In this document: positions 2,451 through 11,607 of the stretch, in pieces
Layout of the letters: every line of letters begins with the position of its first letter
Numbering within the stretch: position 1 is the first letter of the stretch
DNA from: Brachyspira sp. G79
Lineage (GTDB): Bacteria; Spirochaetota; Brachyspiria; Brachyspirales; Brachyspiraceae
Direction of reading: 5' to 3'
DNA length: 48,475 bases
Assembly: GCF_002379365.1 (NCBI RefSeq)
Contig: NZ_JQIU01000008.1
Coordinates: forward strand, 934,397 to 982,871
Position numbers and translations under genes: made by a program
The notes under the pieces: generated by a model
What the model was told of the DNA's origin: nothing
The model's input: the letters and a program-made list of their open reading frames with translations, nothing else
The model's database searches: none

Positions 2451-4049
2451 ATGGCAGTAAAAAAAATAGATACAAAAAAAAATACAGCTAAAAAAACTTC
2501 TGCGGTATCAAAAACTACTAAAGCTGCAAAACCAGTAAAAAAAGCAGAATCAGAAAAAAAAGTGTCGGTAAGAATTTCATACAAAGAATTGTCTGAAGAA
2601 TTAAAATTAAAACTTAAACAGTCTGAAGAAAAAATAGCAGAACTTAATCAAAAATATAAAAAAGTAGTAGACATACAAAAAAAGAAAATAGAAGATAAAT
2701 ATAAAAAAATCATAGAGGATTTAGAAGCAAAAAAATCAATACCTGCAAAAAGTCAAAGCAGTAATGCTGAAATTAATAAACTTCAAAAAAGATTAGATAA
2801 ATTGGAAAAAACTAATCAAAAACTAGAAGAAGAAAAAAGAAAAATAGAATTAAAAAATGAAGAGCTAAAACAAAAAGCAAAAGAAGCTTTAAAATCAAAA
2901 TCTGCAACTCAATCAAAAACAGCCAAAACAGATAAAGAAACATTAAAAGAAATAAAAGCTCTAAGAGAACAATTAATTGAATCTGAACAGGAGAAAAAAG
3001 AATTAAAAGCAAAATTAAAAGAAGCAGTATCCGAATTAAAAAATGCTAAGAAAAACACTAATAAATTATCAAAAGAAGATAAAGAACAATATAAAGAAAA
3101 CTTAAAGATATTAAAACAAATAGAAAAAGAATCAAAAGCATTAGATAAGAAAAGAGAACTTCTAAAAAAAGAAGAAGAAAAATTAAAAGAAATAAGAGGA
3201 GATATAAAAAGCTCCGCAAAAGATATAGCTTCAACAATGAAAAAAAGCTATCTTGCTGATGATGAAGAGGATAATGAAGAAAACGGCAATTTACTTTCTA
3301 ATATGGACGCCAAAACAGAAGAAGGCATAACAAAATTAGCTACTCTATTATGTGCTGCTATGGACGATTACAGAGAGCAGAAAGAAAAAGAAAGAGAAGA
3401 GCTTGAAAAAGAAAGTTCAGAGCCTATAATGTCGGAAGGAGAAGAGAGATTAAATAAAGCCTCTGAAGAGTTAGAAAATCTAGTTGAAAACAGACTTGAA
3501 GATTCTGACAGCAGCAAAGATGAAAATTTAAGCAAAAGACCTTTTACTATTATAGATAAAATAGAAAACAGCCGTGTAGAAATTAATGAGGGATACACTC
3601 CTCCTTCAGGTGGACAGACTATAGTTGCAGCTCCTCAGGATGCATCACAAGCACCTCAAACACCAGCTCAGCAGCCTAATATTACAGTAAAAGTAGAAGC
3701 TCCTAAAGAAAGTGCTAAATTGGCAAAACCAGAAACTCAGCTTAAACCTGCAAGCGAAACTCCTACTATGAGAATGAAGCTTTTAGATGATATAGATGAT
3801 TATGAGAAAAAACTTGTAATTACTTATGGTTTTGATAATATGCCAGAAAATACATACTATTCTAAATATAAAAGAATATTAAGAAATGCTGCTAGAATAA
3901 GTTTATTCGGCAATCTGCAGGAAGGTCTCGAAATGTTCAAACTTATAAGAGATCAAAATATACCTGATGAATATAAACAAATGATAGATAAAAATATACA
4001 AGATATTACTTACTATTTAAGAGGTCTTCATAGAGTAAGAATGGAATAG
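2451..4049 (+). CDS. Large lysine/glutamate-rich coiled-coil protein
   Basis: A 532-residue cytoplasmic protein of unknown function. Residues 1-40 are a basic Lys/Ala/Thr tail resembling histone-H1-like tails. Residues about 45-265 form long heptad-type coiled coil dominated by Lys, Glu and Leu. An acidic stretch follows (DDEEDNEENG), then a Pro/Gln/Ala linker near 385-440. The last ~90 residues (MRMKLLDDIDDYEKK to the end) look like a small folded helical domain. There is no signal peptide or membrane segment. The ATG at 2451 has only a weak AGG upstream; the ATG at 2435 is out of frame. The heparinase-like gene follows after 34 bp, so the two may share a transcript. A structural or DNA-associated role is possible, but nothing proves it. 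Confidence 0.7.
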   Translation: MAVKKIDTKKNTAKKTSAVSKTTKAAKPVKKAESEKKVSVRISYKELSEELKLKLKQSEEKIAELNQKYKKVVDIQKKKIEDKYKKIIEDLEAKKSIPAKSQSSNAEINKLQKRLDKLEKTNQKLEEEKRKIELKNEELKQKAKEALKSKSATQSKTAKTDKETLKEIKALREQLIESEQEKKELKAKLKEAVSELKNAKKNTNKLSKEDKEQYKENLKILKQIEKESKALDKKRELLKKEEEKLKEIRGDIKSSAKDIASTMKKSYLADDEEDNEENGNLLSNMDAKTEEGITKLATLLCAAMDDYREQKEKEREELEKESSEPIMSEGEERLNKASEELENLVENRLEDSDSSKDENLSKRPFTIIDKIENSRVEINEGYTPPSGGQTIVAAPQDASQAPQTPAQQPNITVKVEAPKESAKLAKPETQLKPASETPTMRMKLLDDIDDYEKKLVITYGFDNMPENTYYSKYKRILRNAARISLFGNLQEGLEMFKLIRDQNIPDEYKQMIDKNIQDITYYLRGLHRVRME

Positions 4050-4083: not shown

Positions 4084-6837
4084 ATGAAAAAAATTATAAA
4101 AATTGTATTAATAATATTGATAATACCTATTATCTTTTCCTGTTCTAAAAAGAAAATATATGACAGAGAAATAGAAGCCGTTTACGATAAAAGAGATAAT
4201 TCATATACTATTATTTACCCAGAATATAATAAACAATACCCTAAATATATATCATTAAAATATGGTAAATCAGTAAAAATACAAAATGGTATAATATTAA
4301 CTTACAATATAGACACAGATAATATACCCATACAATTAAATATAGAAGTAAATGAAAATAATATCAAAAAAACATTTAATATAGAAAATCCTTTAGTTAA
4401 TAGAAATATAAACCTTACAATATACGCCACCAATTTTAATCCTCCTTTAGAAAGAGATAAAATTGATGAGCTTTCTGTAAGTATAAAAAGTATAGGAAGT
4501 ACTGACACTAAAGACACAGTAAAGATAGCAATAGCAGAAAATGAAGATAAAAGAGTTTCAAGAGAAAATATTGCCTTAATACTTCCAGAAAGCGGACATA
4601 TAGCTAAAAGCAATCCTCCTTTTATAATGGTGAATAAAAGAACTACTTTTACAAGAATATCGGTATCAAAGGAACTTTCTTTTTCTTCAAGATATGAATA
4701 CACATTAAGAAATAATAGTTTCTTTTCTATGACAAATCAATTAGAAAACGGTAAATGGTATATAGCATTTGACGAAAACGGAGATACAAATTTAAGAAGA
4801 GTTTATCATTTCTTTATAGATGATAGCAGTACAAAGATTATACCAATAACAAATAAAACATTTAATATAAAAAGACCATTTGTATTTATAGATAAACAGA
4901 CATTTGATGTTTTATACAATTTACTATACAGGCAAAACCGTCTTCAAGCATCTACCCTACTTAGAAATATAAATGCATTCAAATTATACACATCTGCCAG
5001 TATGGGAAAATGGTCGGTTAATAATATATCGTACACAAATACTGATGATACTAATAAATTACACTTTGAAGACCTTCCTTCTCATACTATGCTTATGTCA
5101 TTAAAAGCTGCATTTGAACCTAATAATAATTTATTAAAATATGAAATTAAACAGATGATAAGGGATATAGTAAACCTAGATGAAGCAAATATACCAAATT
5201 ATAAAGAAACAGATGCTGTTACTATATTGGCTAATTCTCTTCTTATGCCTTTTGATTTAATGTATGATGAGTTCTCTCCAGAAGAAATAGTTTTGATGAA
5301 GCAGAAGTTTATTAAATACGGAGAGACTCTTTATAATTATATAGCTGAAAATCCTGCAGAGTATAGGAAAAAAGACACCATAAAATACGCTTCAGCATTA
5401 GGATTAATAGCTATAAATATGCTTAATGAAAATGTTAATCAGGATCAAATTAGAAATTGGCATTATTTTTCAATGAATTATATTAACGGAATGATATTTT
5501 CTATGTTTGAAAAAGACGGCAGTTTTAAATCTTCTATAAGCGAGGCATTTGACACTATTCTTCCGATACTTACATATGCATTATCATTAAAAAATGTTGG
5601 AATATTTGATGCTTTCAGTTTAGAATCTTTTAAAAATATAGGAAAATATTTATCTATAGTAGGATATCCTTCAGGATACACATTACCTATAGGATACACT
5701 GCCATAGATAACAGAAGCAAATTAAGATTTGATACTGGTGCTAGAAGTGCTGTTATGGAGCTTTTAAGTAAAATGAGTGCAAATCCATTATATAAAAATT
5801 ATGCAGTATTTGCACAAAGCGAGGCTGTAAATTTAAGATATCTGCCTTATGTATTAATGTGGAATAATTATTATCTTAGAGACAATGTTCCTTCTAATCC
5901 AGAATTTCAATATGAAACATTGCTATTAAAAAAAATACAAACTGCTATATATAATGAAAATATAAAAACTCTTAATGCTCCTTATTTAGCCGTATATGCA
6001 AAGGGCAGAAATGCTGACACATCTTTTGGGCTTAATCATAATGACAGAATGAGCTTTGTTTATTATAATTATGGTGATTCTATAATTGATGAGTTAGGAT
6101 ATAATTTTGATACTAATAATTATGAATTATTTAAAGATGCGGATTTTCATAATGGTATATCTATAGATAATGAAAAAATAGAAGAAAATACTGGAAGCTA
6201 TTCATATATAGAAAGCATAACAAATTATTACAAAATGTTTTATGCACATGCTAAAGCAAATCAGCAGTATACTTATTCTGTAAATCTCAAAAATTATGAC
6301 AGAAGATTTTATTATTTAAAACCTAATATTCTAATAATAAAAGAAGATATTGAAGCTTTGCCTGACATCACTAGAGAGTACCATGTTTATGGTTATAAAT
6401 ATAAATGGGCGTTTAACTCAAAACTTCCTATGGTGCTTGAAAATAATAAATTTATCATAGAAGGTAATTATTCATCTACATACGTAGAAATATTATCTCA
6501 AAATGAATTAGAATATAAAGTTATTCAAACTAATATAGGAAATAATATATTATACAGAGCCGAAGTTTTTACAAAAGAAAACATAAAAAAATTTGAGCCT
6601 TGGGTAATAGTAAAGACAATGCCTAAAAATAATGTTCCTATAGCTATGAGAAGAAATATTATTAATACTAATATTACTATAAACAGCTTTACAAGCACAA
6701 ATTTAAACTTTAAAGCAGGATATAAAGATTATAATATAAACATAGCAAACTACAAAAATACATCAGATAATACAAATAAAATAAACAATATAGTATATAC
6801 AGAAAATAGGGAAAGTGTTATAATAAGTTCATATTAA
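4084..6837 (+). CDS. Heparinase II/III-like lipoprotein
   Basis: A 917-residue lipoprotein. The N-terminus is a lipoprotein signal peptide with the lipobox IFSC at residues 17-20. A beta-rich region to about residue 270 is followed by a helical region (about 270-620), as in the alpha/alpha toroid of alginate and heparinase-type polysaccharide lyases. The C-terminal part carries the heparinase II/III pattern: an Asn-His-Asn-Asp-Arg stretch, SFVYYNYGDSIIDELGY, then DADFHNGISIDN with the family's HN, and later YDRRFYYLKPNILIIKEDIE. This suggests cleavage of uronic-acid-containing polysaccharide at the cell surface, releasing amino sugars. The two NagB-like genes follow 14 and 12 bp downstream of their neighbours, consistent with one pathway. 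Substrate is not predictable from sequence; assignment rests on motif resemblance. Confidence 0.6.
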   Translation: MKKIIKIVLIILIIPIIFSCSKKKIYDREIEAVYDKRDNSYTIIYPEYNKQYPKYISLKYGKSVKIQNGIILTYNIDTDNIPIQLNIEVNENNIKKTFNIENPLVNRNINLTIYATNFNPPLERDKIDELSVSIKSIGSTDTKDTVKIAIAENEDKRVSRENIALILPESGHIAKSNPPFIMVNKRTTFTRISVSKELSFSSRYEYTLRNNSFFSMTNQLENGKWYIAFDENGDTNLRRVYHFFIDDSSTKIIPITNKTFNIKRPFVFIDKQTFDVLYNLLYRQNRLQASTLLRNINAFKLYTSASMGKWSVNNISYTNTDDTNKLHFEDLPSHTMLMSLKAAFEPNNNLLKYEIKQMIRDIVNLDEANIPNYKETDAVTILANSLLMPFDLMYDEFSPEEIVLMKQKFIKYGETLYNYIAENPAEYRKKDTIKYASALGLIAINMLNENVNQDQIRNWHYFSMNYINGMIFSMFEKDGSFKSSISEAFDTILPILTYALSLKNVGIFDAFSLESFKNIGKYLSIVGYPSGYTLPIGYTAIDNRSKLRFDTGARSAVMELLSKMSANPLYKNYAVFAQSEAVNLRYLPYVLMWNNYYLRDNVPSNPEFQYETLLLKKIQTAIYNENIKTLNAPYLAVYAKGRNADTSFGLNHNDRMSFVYYNYGDSIIDELGYNFDTNNYELFKDADFHNGISIDNEKIEENTGSYSYIESITNYYKMFYAHAKANQQYTYSVNLKNYDRRFYYLKPNILIIKEDIEALPDITREYHVYGYKYKWAFNSKLPMVLENNKFIIEGNYSSTYVEILSQNELEYKVIQTNIGNNILYRAEVFTKENIKKFEPWVIVKTMPKNNVPIAMRRNIINTNITINSFTSTNLNFKAGYKDYNINIANYKNTSDNTNKINNIVYTENRESVIISSY

Positions 6838-6851
6838 TGAAGGACTTATTA

Positions 6852-7626
6852 ATGAATATATATATTGCTAATTCATATAAAGACTATATTGATTTTACAG
6901 CTAAACATATTCTCAATTTTTTTAGAAAAGAAACAGGAAAAAAAGAAAAATTAATATATATCCGTTTCAAGCGAATATGATACAAAAGATATTTATAAAT
7001 CTATAATAGAAAATATTAAATCTTATAAAATAAATTTCAAAAATATATTTATATTTCAGCAATCTGAATATATAGGGCTTTCCCCTACTGACAAAAACAG
7101 CAAAGCATATTTTTTAAGAGAAAATCTTATATCAAAATTAGATATACCAGAAGAAAATGTTTTTTTATTTGATGGAAAGGGTGATGAATCTCAAATGGAC
7201 AAACAGCTTGAAATTATAAAAAAAATAGGCAGATTTGATGTTATATGGTATTCTCTTACAGCAGATTCTACTTCTGCAGGCAATGAAAGAATGTCGTCAT
7301 TATCCTCACTATTTAGAATTAAAACTTTAAGCGAACATTCTATAAGTGAAATAAAAAAAAGATTTTCAGAAGATGAGGAAGTACCTACAACGGTATTTAG
7401 TATGGGTATGGGTTTTATAAATATTGTTGATACAGTTTTGCTTACATCATCTGGTATAGAAAAATCATGTTCTTTGAGAGATTGTTTGGAATATGGAATA
7501 AGTAATTCTTCTCCTCTAAGCAAACTTCAAAAACACAGCGATGTTACTGTAATAGCTGATTATGAATCTTCTTTAAGACTTTCAAGCCAAACTGTATTTA
7601 TGAAAATAGAAAAGAATATAAAATAA
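6852..7626 (+). pseudogene. Frameshifted NagB-like (glucosamine-6-phosphate deaminase family) gene
   Basis: ATG at 6852 behind AAGGAC opens a frame that stops at TGA 6978-6980. The homologous frame opens at 6955 and runs to 7626. Joining them across 6951-6963 gives a NagB-sized protein (~258 residues). Dropping one C at 6962-6963 would restore LIYIVSSEYD. NagB landmarks can be aligned (FIFQQSEYIGL with FNMDEYVGL; DIPEENVFLFDG with DIPAENINLLNG; FSMGMGFINIVDTVLL), but the DEY aspartate is Ser and the GNDGHIAFNEP active-site segment reads like TADSTSAGNER, with no His. So even if the frame is intact, deaminase activity is doubtful. It sits between the heparinase-like gene and the NagB/NagA fusion in one apparent operon. 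A sequencing error could explain the frame break but not the changed residues. Confidence 0.7.
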
Positions 7627-7638
7627 TAAGGAGAATAT

Positions 7639-9603
7639 ATGAGAATCATTATTACAAATGAAAGCGTTTATGAATGGGCTGCTTACTACACAGTAAAATG
7701 CATATTAGATTATTCGGAAACTGATAAGCCTTTCGTATTATCTTTTCCTTTAAGATATGTTAATAAATCATACTATCAAAAACTATTATCTTTTTATAAT
7801 GACAATATAGTATCATTTAAAAATATACATATAGTTTCATCTGGAGAATATATAGACTCCGACATATCGCAAAAGTATTTAGAGGATAATTTCTTAAAGT
7901 TTATAGATATACCTAGAGAGAATGTCCATTTATTTGAAAGCAATGTGGCAAACAGAAAAGAAGAAGCTAAAAGAATGGCTAATTTGATAAAAGAATTAGG
8001 AAATATAACATTATTAATAGATACATTAGCAGAAGACGGAAGTTTTCTTCTTAATACTCCAAGCTCCTCACTAGAAGGAAGTGTTAGAGATAAAAAAATA
8101 AGCGAAATAATAAGAAGCTATGAATCAAAAAAGTTTGGTATGCCGATAGAGATGTTTCCTAGAGAAGGATTTACTTTAGGTTTTGAAGAGGCTTTTAATG
8201 CTAAATATGTACTTGTAATGGCTAGCGGTTATGAAGTGTCCGATGCTTTGGCTCATTGTGTAGAGGGGGCTATTACTCAGTTCTACCCTACTTCTGTACT
8301 TCAGGAACATAAAAAACTTATAATCGTTGCTGATGAAGAGTCAAGCAGCGATTTGAAAGTAAAAACTTATAAATATGCTAAAAGTTTGGAAAGTAAAAGT
8401 CTTCACCCTAAAGAACTTATTAAAGGGCTTTATAAATCTTATTATGCTCTTACAAACATTAAAATATTTGACGGCGAAAAGTTTATAGACGGACATTGTA
8501 TTGTTATAGAAAATAATGTTATAAAAAGCGTTGAAAAAGAAATAGATGTTGATGCTGTTATTACCAGAATAGATTTAGGAGGAAAAATAGTTGCTCCAGG
8601 ATATATAGACTTGCAGGTTAATGGTATAGGCGGATATGATATTAATGCCTCTCCTACTGTTGAAACATTAAAAAATATGAATGAAGTTTGTCAAAGATAC
8701 GGCTGTACTTCATATTTGCCTACAGTAATTACTAACAGTGATGAATATATGATAAAAATTATAGACTTATTCAATAATATAGAGGATCTATCTGTAATGG
8801 GGGTATTAGGAATACATTTTGAAGGTCCTTATATATCGCATGAGAAAAGAGGTATACACAATGAGAAGTTTATAAGAGAGCCTAATATTGAAATGATAAA
8901 AAAAATCAATGCATCAAAATGTGTAATGGTTACTGTAGCTCCAGAAATGGTAAAAGGAGAAGTTATAGAAGCATTTGCTATGGGAGGAAAAGTAGTATCT
9001 GTAGGACATACAAACGGCACATACAATGAAATAAAAGAAAAAATACCTTATGGAATAACTTTTGCCACACATTTATTTAATGCTATGCGTCCTTGGGGTT
9101 CAAGAGAGCCCGGTGCTGTAGGAGCGGTACTTGAAACTAAAGACATGTACGCTGGTTTAATATGCGATGGTGTGCATTGTGATTTTGCTTCAGTAGAGCT
9201 TGCATACAAATTAAAAACAGGTCATATATGTATAGTTACTGATGCTATAGCTCCTGCTGCTGCTCCAGAGATAAAAGAATATATTTGGGCTGGTAAAAAA
9301 ATACATAGAGACGGCAACAGGCTTATTGATGATAACGGTACTTTGGGAGGCTCTTCTATTACTATGAGTCAATCTGTAAGAAATGTAGTTAATCATGTAG
9401 GTGCTGCTGTAGAAGAGGCTTTGAAAATGGCTTCGCTTTATCCTGCTAAAGTTATGGGCATAGATGACAAATACGGCAGAATAAAAGAAGGTTATATTGC
9501 CGACTTAGTGATACTAGATGAAAACCTAATAGTAAAAGGTGTGGTATTTAAAGGAAACTACAAAGAGTATAATTATGACCATGAATGGGTGACACATGCT
9601 TAA
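7639..9603 (+). CDS. nagA: NagB-like domain fused to N-acetylglucosamine-6-phosphate deacetylase (NagA)
   Basis: A 654-residue two-domain protein. Residues 1-265 align with NagB (SSGEY, DIPRENVHLF, AEDGSFLLNTPSSSL, then CVEGAITQFYPTSVLQEHKKLIIVADEESS.DLKVKTYKYAK). The catalytic Asp72, His143 and Glu148 of E. coli NagB correspond to Gly69, Ser135 and Thr140, and only Asp133 is kept, so this half is probably not a deaminase. Residues about 270-654 are a complete NagA: PGYIDLQVNGIGG, HFEGP (Glu395), VGHTNGTY (His457), FATHLFNAM (His478), CDGVHCD, VTDAIAPA (Asp535) and GTLGGSS. This half should remove acetate from GlcNAc-6-phosphate in the cytoplasm. AAGGAG precedes the ATG. It is the last gene of the run and is closed by a terminator. 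Confidence 0.88.
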   Translation: MRIIITNESVYEWAAYYTVKCILDYSETDKPFVLSFPLRYVNKSYYQKLLSFYNDNIVSFKNIHIVSSGEYIDSDISQKYLEDNFLKFIDIPRENVHLFESNVANRKEEAKRMANLIKELGNITLLIDTLAEDGSFLLNTPSSSLEGSVRDKKISEIIRSYESKKFGMPIEMFPREGFTLGFEEAFNAKYVLVMASGYEVSDALAHCVEGAITQFYPTSVLQEHKKLIIVADEESSSDLKVKTYKYAKSLESKSLHPKELIKGLYKSYYALTNIKIFDGEKFIDGHCIVIENNVIKSVEKEIDVDAVITRIDLGGKIVAPGYIDLQVNGIGGYDINASPTVETLKNMNEVCQRYGCTSYLPTVITNSDEYMIKIIDLFNNIEDLSVMGVLGIHFEGPYISHEKRGIHNEKFIREPNIEMIKKINASKCVMVTVAPEMVKGEVIEAFAMGGKVVSVGHTNGTYNEIKEKIPYGITFATHLFNAMRPWGSREPGAVGAVLETKDMYAGLICDGVHCDFASVELAYKLKTGHICIVTDAIAPAAAPEIKEYIWAGKKIHRDGNRLIDDNGTLGGSSITMSQSVRNVVNHVGAAVEEALKMASLYPAKVMGIDDKYGRIKEGYIADLVILDENLIVKGVVFKGNYKEYNYDHEWVTHA

Positions 9604-9698: not shown

Positions 9699-11011
9699 AT
9701 GAAATTAACAATAAATAATTTTTCCAAAATAAAAAAGGCTGATATACAACTAAAAGGTATAACAGTAATATGCGGTGAAAATAATACAGGAAAAAGTACT
9801 GTAGGAAAGATTTTATTCTCTATTTTTGATTCTAATAAAGATAAATATCTTAAAATAGAAGAAGAATTATTATTTGAATTTCAATTAATATTTTTAAAAA
9901 ACTCTATAGATATTACAGCACATAATAAGTATTTATATAATAGAATTATTGAAAAATTAGATCTTATTCTAAAAGAAATAAATTATTTTAAAGATACAAA
10001 AAATATATCTATTGAATTTATAAAAAAATATTTTCAAAGAAATATTTGACCATAATTTTTATGATTTTTTTAGAAAAAACTTCGGAAAATAAAAATATAG
10101 AAACTTATGATAATATTATAAATAATATTTCAAATGATGCAGAAAAAACATTAAAAAATTCATATAGAAAAATAATGCAGGAAGTAAGTAAAAGATATTT
10201 TAATGAAATATTTAAAAATCAAATAAACAATTTGTACCATAGAGAAAGTACAGCATCATTAGAACTAGAAATAAAAAACAAAAAAATGAATATAGACTTT
10301 AAAAATAATGAATGTATAAAATTTGAAGAGGAATTTGATATTATTAACAATATTTACTATATGGATAATCCGTTTATATTAGATAAAATTAACGGTACAG
10401 AAAATAAATACAGCCTTATAGATAAAAAATTAATTGCTTCTCTTACAAAAGATTATACTGAAAACATGTATGAAAATATTTTCAGTGCTGTAAAAAATAA
10501 TGATATAATGAAAAATTTAGAAAAATTATTAAAAAATATAACTATTGGAGAAATAATAAAAAATAATGGAGTTTACTATCTAAAAGAAGATAATATTGAT
10601 ATAGTATTTGAAAATTTATCCGCAGGATTAAAATCATTTATAATTATAAAAATGCTTCTATCAAATACATCTCTAAAAGAAAATGATATTCTAATATTAG
10701 ACGAGCCTGAAATACATCTACACCCAAAATGGCAATTAATATACGCTGAGTTAATAGTATTACTTAATAAGTATTTAAATCTAATTGTTATAATAACAAG
10801 CCATAGCCCTTATTTTGTAGATGCTATAAACAGATATGCTAAACTACATGAAATAAATAATAATACTAATTTTTACTTATCAGAATTAGAAAAAGATAAT
10901 AAGAATACAATTATTAGTAATGTAAATGAAAACATTGATTTAATATATAAAAAAATGTATGAACCTATAGAAATATTAAACAATATGAAATACGACGAAG
11001 ATATAGAATAA
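9699..11011 (+). pseudogene. Frameshifted AAA/OLD-type ATPase
   Basis: Three reading frames together give one ATPase of about 437 residues. Frame one (9699-10049) has a RecF/OLD-like start and Walker A GENNTGKST. A middle frame (KEIFDHNFYDFFRKNF, about 10036-10086) joins it to frame three, which reads to 11011 and has the ABC-type signature LSAG, Walker B ILILDEPEIHLHP and the switch histidine ITSHSPYF. Each join needs removal of one base: a T in the run at 10031-10034 and an A in the run at 10074-10079. Such ATPases drive several nuclease-linked defence systems, but no TOPRIM domain is present. The partner gene at 11011 overlaps the stop by one base. A TATAAT at 9687-9692 lies only 6 bases before the ATG, and no ribosome binding site is visible. 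Confidence 0.75.
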
Positions 11012-11607
11012 TGAAAAATGAAATTATAAAAGATATAAAACAGATAATATCTAATTTTATACAAAGCAGAGAAATAAATAATTTAGAAAATACTATCAAT
11101 ATAACTTCGTATTCGCCTTCAAATGATGAATATATGACAGATGCTGATAATATTGTAATTAATGGTGATATTTTGAAAGATATTTATAACAGTAAATATA
11201 ATTTTAATAACAGACCAAAATCTGCAGATGCTGTTTATAAATTTGAAAATGGAAATATATACATAATAGAATTTAAAAATGGTAAAATAAATAATAAAGA
11301 AAAATTAGATATTTTTAAAAAAGCTTATGATACATTTTTAATGCTGCTTGATATAGGAATAATAAAAAATTTAAATTATTCAAGAAACTATCTGACATAT
11401 ATAGTTGTTTATAATAAATTAAAAAATGATGAGCCTAACAAAGATAATATTTATAAATATTTTGCTAAAAATGCTTTGACTTATAAGGAATATAAATTTA
11501 AAGATTTAAATACTTTGCAAGAAATATTATTTAAAGAGTCATTTGCCTGTACAAAAGAGAATTTTAATGAATATATAATACCTGAACTTAATAAAGAACA
11601 AAATTAA
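11011..11607 (+). CDS. Possible PD-(D/E)XK-type nuclease-fold protein, partner of the ATPase
   Basis: A 198-residue cytoplasmic protein I do not recognise as a named family. Around residues 71-91 it reads SADAVYKF..GNIYIIEFKNGK. The spacing of Asp73, Glu87 and Lys89 on what looks like a beta-hairpin resembles the D...ExK active site of PD-(D/E)XK nucleases, followed by a helix (KEKLDIFKKAYDTFLMLLDI) and another strand (LTYIVVYNK). That is a motif-level suggestion only. Its ATG overlaps the TAA of the ATPase gene (TAATG), indicating translational coupling. With the ATPase it would form a two-gene unit like many anti-phage modules. If the ATPase is truly broken, this gene may be an orphan remnant. 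Confidence 0.6.
   Translation: MKNEIIKDIKQIISNFIQSREINNLENTINITSYSPSNDEYMTDADNIVINGDILKDIYNSKYNFNNRPKSADAVYKFENGNIYIIEFKNGKINNKEKLDIFKKAYDTFLMLLDIGIIKNLNYSRNYLTYIVVYNKLKNDEPNKDNIYKYFAKNALTYKEYKFKDLNTLQEILFKESFACTKENFNEYIIPELNKEQN

Follow-up and report, generated by a model that had tools for sequence, protein, structure and literature searches.

The window analysed here, a stretch of 48,475 nucleotides from Brachyspira sp. G79 (contig NZ_JQIU01000008.1, positions 934,397–982,871), contains a gene, nagB*-nagA, whose product joins a NagB-like domain stripped of its deaminase residues to a complete GlcNAc6P deacetylase (NagA) domain, and in which residues that bind the allosteric activator GlcNAc6P in hexameric NagBs have been kept. 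We put at roughly one-half the probability that a hexameric-type NagB has here been turned into a GlcNAc6P-binding regulatory module of NagA; such a module would probably also be oligomerising. Beyond the original prediction of a dead deaminase domain with a regulatory role, the analysis brings in a second pseudo-NagB gene (NagB2), a normal NagB encoded elsewhere in the genome, the allosteric pattern, a near-invariant linker and less eroded relatives in a second spirochaete family (f35). No description of this fusion was found in the open-access literature. The features are collected in Table 1.

Table 1. Position of NagB2, the fusion gene and its parts in the window (E. coli NagB numbering in parentheses)
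Feature	Position	Strand	Basis or remark
NagB2, second pseudo-NagB gene	6852..7626	+	directly upstream of the fusion; frameshifted near the 5' end in G79
Fusion gene nagB*-nagA	7639..9603	+	654 aa, ATG start; ORF list, TIGR00502 and TIGR00221 matches, conserved in Brachyspira
Pseudo-NagB domain, aa 1–250	7639..8388	+	profile match, alignment, Foldseek
Former phosphate loop, now PLRYVNKSYY, aa 37–46	7747..7776	+	aligned to NagB PTGGTP
G69 (counterpart of catalytic D72)	7843..7845	+	G in 29/29 fusion proteins, second family included
Remains of ring-opening triad: D133 (D141) kept; S135 (H143) and T140 (E148) lost	8035..8058	+	
Kept allosteric face A: S143, S144, R150, K152 (S151, S152, R158, K160)	8065..8094	+	invariant in all fusions
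Y246 (Y254), allosteric face NC	8374..8376	+	29/29 fusion proteins
Interdomain linker HPKELIKGLYKSYYA, aa 256–270	8404..8448	+	most conserved 15-residue stretch of the fusion protein
Complete NagA (GlcNAc6P deacetylase) domain	8440..9558	+	TIGR00221 above cut-off; metal and catalytic residues 29/29

The proposed architecture, a full-length NagB-like domain joined to a complete NagA, was borne out by profile matches. The nagB model TIGR00502 (NCBIfam) is covered over its full length by aa 1–251 with 150.9 bits, which leaves the Brachyspira fusion domain below the equivalog cut-off of 236.9 bits, and the nagA model TIGR00221 matches aa 268–640 with 368 bits against a cut-off of 225.65; Pfam recognises the NagA part alone. 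Residues E131, H143, H195, H216, H251 and D273 of NagA are present in 29/29 fusion proteins, in agreement with the claim that this half retains all catalytic residues, and by score and catalytic residues it is assigned to the GlcNAc6P deacetylase (NagA) family. The NagB fold of the N-terminal half is supported by a model that superimposes on E. coli NagB (PDB code 1dea) with a Foldseek TMt of 0.86 over 251 columns. Its nearest matches in the PDB are the hexameric NagBs of Vibrio, Borrelia, Haemophilus and E. coli together with the dimeric Pasteurella NagB, and the monomeric NagBs of Bacillus and Streptococcus match far more weakly. In the AlphaFold model of the full fusion the NagB half is usable and the NagA half is poor (mean pLDDT 58, 13 sequences), and no interdomain geometry is therefore claimed.

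The N-terminal half was aligned with PDB NagB chains and with E. coli K-12 NagB (L078), which provides the residue numbering, using phmmer and MAFFT. The losses claimed earlier, D72 to Gly69, H143 to Ser135 and E148 to Thr140, are all correct, and so is the replacement of the phosphate loop, where PTGGTP aligns with PLRYVN. Further active-site changes in the Brachyspira fusion are K208 to V, G137 to N/T and, in most sequences, R172 to K. As judged by the marks of an active NagB, the Brachyspira fusion lacks D72 and the phosphate loop with K208/R172, falls below the TIGR00502 cut-off and retains only D141 of the ring-opening residues D141, H143 and E148. None of the lost residues reappears at a shifted position nearby in either alignment, and misalignment was rejected, as phmmer and MAFFT concur with anchors on both sides. 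Loss of deaminase activity in the Brachyspira fusion is thus nearly certain as far as residues alone can tell, and the absence of active-site residues rules out an ordinary deaminase, as originally predicted.

The four f35 genomes with the fusion (G095, G100, G116 and G132) exhibit a less eroded form of the domain. Here the glycine-rich loop (PGGGT or PGGLT), D141, H143, E148 and K208 are retained, D72 is lost and R172 is replaced by K, and the domains pass the TIGR00502 cut-off with 291–303 bits. D72 is missing from every fusion and every NagB2 of both lineages, and the simplest reading of these sequences is that it was lost first, with the remainder of the active site following later in the Brachyspira line. 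A domain that is still catalytic, carrying out residual deamination, ring opening or another reaction, would fit the retention of D141 and of E73, the neighbour of the lost D72 that ordinary NagBs share, and it would fit the f35 sequences, which keep the loop, D141, H143 and E148 and score above the equivalog cut-off. We nevertheless regard it as improbable, because G replaces the proton-transfer base D72 in 29/29 fusions, and the Brachyspira proteins have in addition lost H143, E148, K208 and the phosphate loop with no shifted replacement to be seen. Both dead NagBs of f35 (L098–L101) lie above the equivalog cut-off with D72 gone in all; they are consequently likely to be annotated as active deaminases, a case in which automatic annotation errs.

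In E. coli NagB, the activator GlcNAc6P is bound by Y121, D141, E148, S151, R158, K160 and Y254 (PMC4281351), which line a cleft between subunits formed by an A face and an N/C-terminal face, Y254 having a role in the allosteric face (PMC4008608). Counterparts of S151, R158, K160 and Y254 are kept in 29/29 fusions. All Brachyspira fusions keep these four and D141 without exception and have lost Y121 and E148; the f35 fusions keep all seven published residues, Y121 and E148 included. At positions invariant in four hexameric-type NagBs (class-invariant positions), the 25 Brachyspira-lineage fusions retain 0/7 in the active site versus 5/5 in the allosteric site (S151, S152, R158, K160 and Y254; Fisher p = 0.0013), S152 having been placed in this set post hoc by the analyst. 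With the published allosteric-only set (Y121, S151, R158, K160 and Y254), the comparison is 4/5 versus 0/7 (p = 0.010); these counts are small and the residue sets partly post hoc. In f35, 4/7 active-site and 5/5 allosteric positions are kept, a pattern that is consistent with sensing and does not discriminate for it, since the active site there is largely intact. Agreement comes from two paralogues, the fusion domain and NagB2, and from the reverse pattern in the true NagB. The hexosamine-phosphate-sensing role first proposed is therefore favoured in that the allosteric residues have outlived the active site, while ligand binding and regulation of NagA are predictions.

The kept residues sit at the cleft between subunits and could have been kept for packing alone. 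This is the main rival and a serious alternative, which we rate as unlikely but well ahead of the others: the dead domain would act only as a scaffold holding a NagA oligomer together, alone or with NagB2, and would sense no ligand. It would agree with the partial retention of the other class-invariant, structural positions (44/122 in the Brachyspira fusion), and the absence from the Brachyspira fusion of Y121 and E148, two further effector contacts of the E. coli enzyme, counts against sensing. On the other hand, a scaffold has no need to keep exact effector contacts, and yet neither of two paralogues varies at the charged, phosphate-binding R158 and K160 or at the small S151, while most of the domain does. 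The linker between the halves suits either reading. Across 13 fusions down to 46% identity, 13 of its 15 positions are invariant, compared with 23% of the NagB part and 33% of the NagA part, and little in E. coli NagB or NagA corresponds to it. Its conservation points to a fixed coupling of the two halves, and a rigid scaffold would be served by it equally.

The in-depth search covered 393 genomes of Spirochaetota; a scan of all GTDB genomes with a single query sequence reached Brachyspira only, and a search for the fusion junction in plasmids returned ordinary NagA matches only. All 26 genomes of Brachyspira species carry the fusion with an open reading frame, truncated by a contig end in two; in the 24 with a complete gene, no other NagA exceeds the family cut-off. 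Within this genome set the closest fusion protein is 99% identical. Outside the genus it was found in one sister genus (G027, 68% identity) and in the four f35 genomes (46–47% identity); a stand-alone NagA accompanies it in G027 and in three of the f35 genomes (G095, G116 and G132) and in no Brachyspira. An apparent independent fusion in G299, a 31% match with an internal stop, was rejected as adjacent separate nagB and nagA genes (L102). NagA, NagB and NagE products have been reported in the Brachyspira proteome, in a passage that is silent on a fusion (PMC4955376), so the fusion gene is probably expressed.

Among Brachyspira species, dN/dS of the NagB domain is 0.029–0.065 and that of the NagA domain equally low. 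G69 and T140 are identical in 25/25 Brachyspira-lineage fusions, of which 24 have S at position 135 and the remaining one has T; together with dN/dS of 0.03–0.065, these fixed substitutions exclude chance, artefact or sequencing error as the source of the lost residues. The same values mean that the domain is not decaying, and its conservation at full length throughout the genus and in f35, as had been claimed for the NagB half, bears the mark of strong purifying selection. That the domain has lost a function might suggest that it is a neutral leftover of an ancient fusion, retained solely through the need for NagA, but with full length maintained in two families and a dN/dS as low as in the NagA half, this is largely refuted and scarcely credible, and a decaying relic is ruled out.

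NagB2 is intact in most other Brachyspira genomes (∼257 aa). Its reading frame is split in G79 by small indels at a T7 run (6917–6923) and an A7 run (6938–6944) and by an extra base near TATATAT, and the gene of G009 (L014) is out of frame at the same poly-A tract, which is A7 in G79 and G009 and A8 in most relatives. The frameshift may reflect decay, slippage-mediated phase variation or a sequencing error. Orthologues are confined to Brachyspira, G027 and f35 (29 genomes, at least 368 bits; the next NagB scores 264 bits). The NagB2 model has a confident NagB fold (pLDDT 85), with Borrelia NagB (PDB code 3hn6) as best match (TMq 0.89). In Brachyspira, NagB2 has lost D72, H143 and the phosphate loop and is without Y121 and Y254; every sequence has S151, R158 and K160, and all but one have D141 and E148. 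At the D72 position, NagB2 proteins carry S/T/F or G. Across both lineages (26–28% identity) there are 26 invariant columns, S151, R158, K160 and T161 included, and face A is kept at 3/3 positions (p = 0.0009). In two genomes, G001 and G003 (B. catarrhinii), no NagB2 lies beside the fusion (L058 and L059), which occupies a different gene neighbourhood there. Because it is missing in two species and broken in G79, NagB2 is not essential to the proposed mechanism, and an obligatory complex with the fusion is unlikely.

The same genome encodes a separate true NagB elsewhere (L001, 253 aa) with the catalytic motif kept (NLDEY, GVGPNGHIAFNEP). The true NagBs of these genomes retain 5/7 active-site and 0/5 allosteric positions, the reverse of the fusion, and group with the monomeric class in the tree, whereas the fusion domains fall in a single clade (100/99) within the hexameric NagBs. 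Tree position and the presence of S151, R158, K160 and Y254 argue for descent of the fusion NagB half from hexameric-type ancestry. The NagB2 sequences also make up a single, weakly supported clade (87/56); its possible sister relation to the fusion domain, as expected from tandem duplication, is neither supported nor rejected (AU p = 0.34). NagA yields the compound that NagB consumes, and one genome encodes both; the domain might instead be a docking or channelling platform that binds the true NagB or NagB2 and hands on the GlcN6P released by NagA. We hold this to be quite improbable: the true NagB belongs to the short monomeric class, without allosteric-site residues, and encoded elsewhere, and NagB2 is itself dead and lost in two species.

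In Brachyspira the NagB2/fusion pair comes after a conserved lipoprotein gene, which in the window (4084–6837) encodes a predicted 917-aa lipoprotein with no Pfam match, possibly a polysaccharide-active enzyme. It lies directly upstream of the pair in Brachyspira and G027, and its end adjoins or overlaps the NagB2 start. Preceding it, at 2451–4049, is a 532-aa protein with no Pfam match that is likewise conserved at this location in other Brachyspira. Downstream of the fusion (9699–11607) is an AAA ATPase (AAA_15/AAA_21) similar to PADLOC defence ATPases such as PtuA and AriA; it is split over two frames at ∼10046, followed by a 198-aa ORF without matches, is probably a broken defence gene and was not seen at the same place in G010 or G007. 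A gene for PTS enzyme I comes after the pair in f35, with an EIIA gene nearby, a context that would make GlcNAc6P.

Collectively, the preferred reading of a GlcNAc6P-responsive NagA can be set out as follows, with loss of activity, ligand binding, oligomerisation, coupling to NagA and partnership with NagB2 all being steps that we infer. The NagB half would be a pseudoenzyme from a hexameric, GlcNAc6P-activated NagB that no longer deaminates GlcN6P, and its retained intersubunit pocket would take GlcNAc6P, on which the attached NagA acts. The NagB domains would assemble via the old trimer interface, with GlcNAc6P between neighbouring domains, contacted by S143, R150 and K152 of face A and by the N terminus and Y246 of face NC. 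The resulting change in packing could be relayed via the linker to NagA, whose activity would thereby be tuned to GlcNAc6P supply. Where present, NagB2 might be part of that ring too, a second subunit able to bind the effector, and deamination would be left to the separate short, non-allosteric-type NagB. More tentatively, and at somewhat less than even odds, the pair may represent a spirochaete two-gene module of two NagBs stripped of catalysis and serving as GlcNAc6P receptors, one of them fused to NagA, with sensing moved to the preceding enzyme and f35 as an intermediate. If so, effector sensing would have been split from deamination, with the catalytic NagB of the short non-allosteric type; a regulatory pocket would have outlived its catalytic site and been reused covalently on a neighbouring enzyme of the same pathway; and graded stages of erosion would persist in living lineages. 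The sensor reading predicts binding of GlcNAc6P without deamination, and bears on how gut spirochaetes handle mucin-type amino sugars.

Compared with known systems, the fusion domain is closest to the hexameric GlcNAc6P-activated NagBs of E. coli, Vibrio cholerae and Borrelia burgdorferi (TIGR00502), its best PDB matches by sequence and structure, with which it shares fold, length, N terminus and the residues D141, S151, R158, K160 and Y254. Unlike these, the Brachyspira domain lacks D72, H143, E148, K208 and the phosphate loop, is fused to NagA and falls below the family cut-off. With NagA (TIGR00221) the fusion shares the whole domain and all catalytic residues, but ordinary NagA stands alone, whereas here it bears a 265-residue N-terminal pseudo-NagB. 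The PRK02122-type NagB-like proteins (NF002557, 653 aa) also carry a NagB-like domain within a longer protein; their match to the fusion is weak and limited to the NagB part of the model. The sensor domains of CggR/SorC and DeoR have a related NagB fold and would be alike in non-catalytic sugar-phosphate sensing, the CggR effector domain being a weak Foldseek match; they control transcription, whereas the fusion domain sits on a metabolic enzyme and descends directly from a true NagB. In the trypanosome AdoMetDC prozyme, a catalytically dead relative is thought to control the active enzyme (PMC5201418). The prozyme is a dead paralogue of the enzyme that it controls, whereas the dead domain of the fusion comes from the enzyme that acts next in the pathway and is attached covalently.
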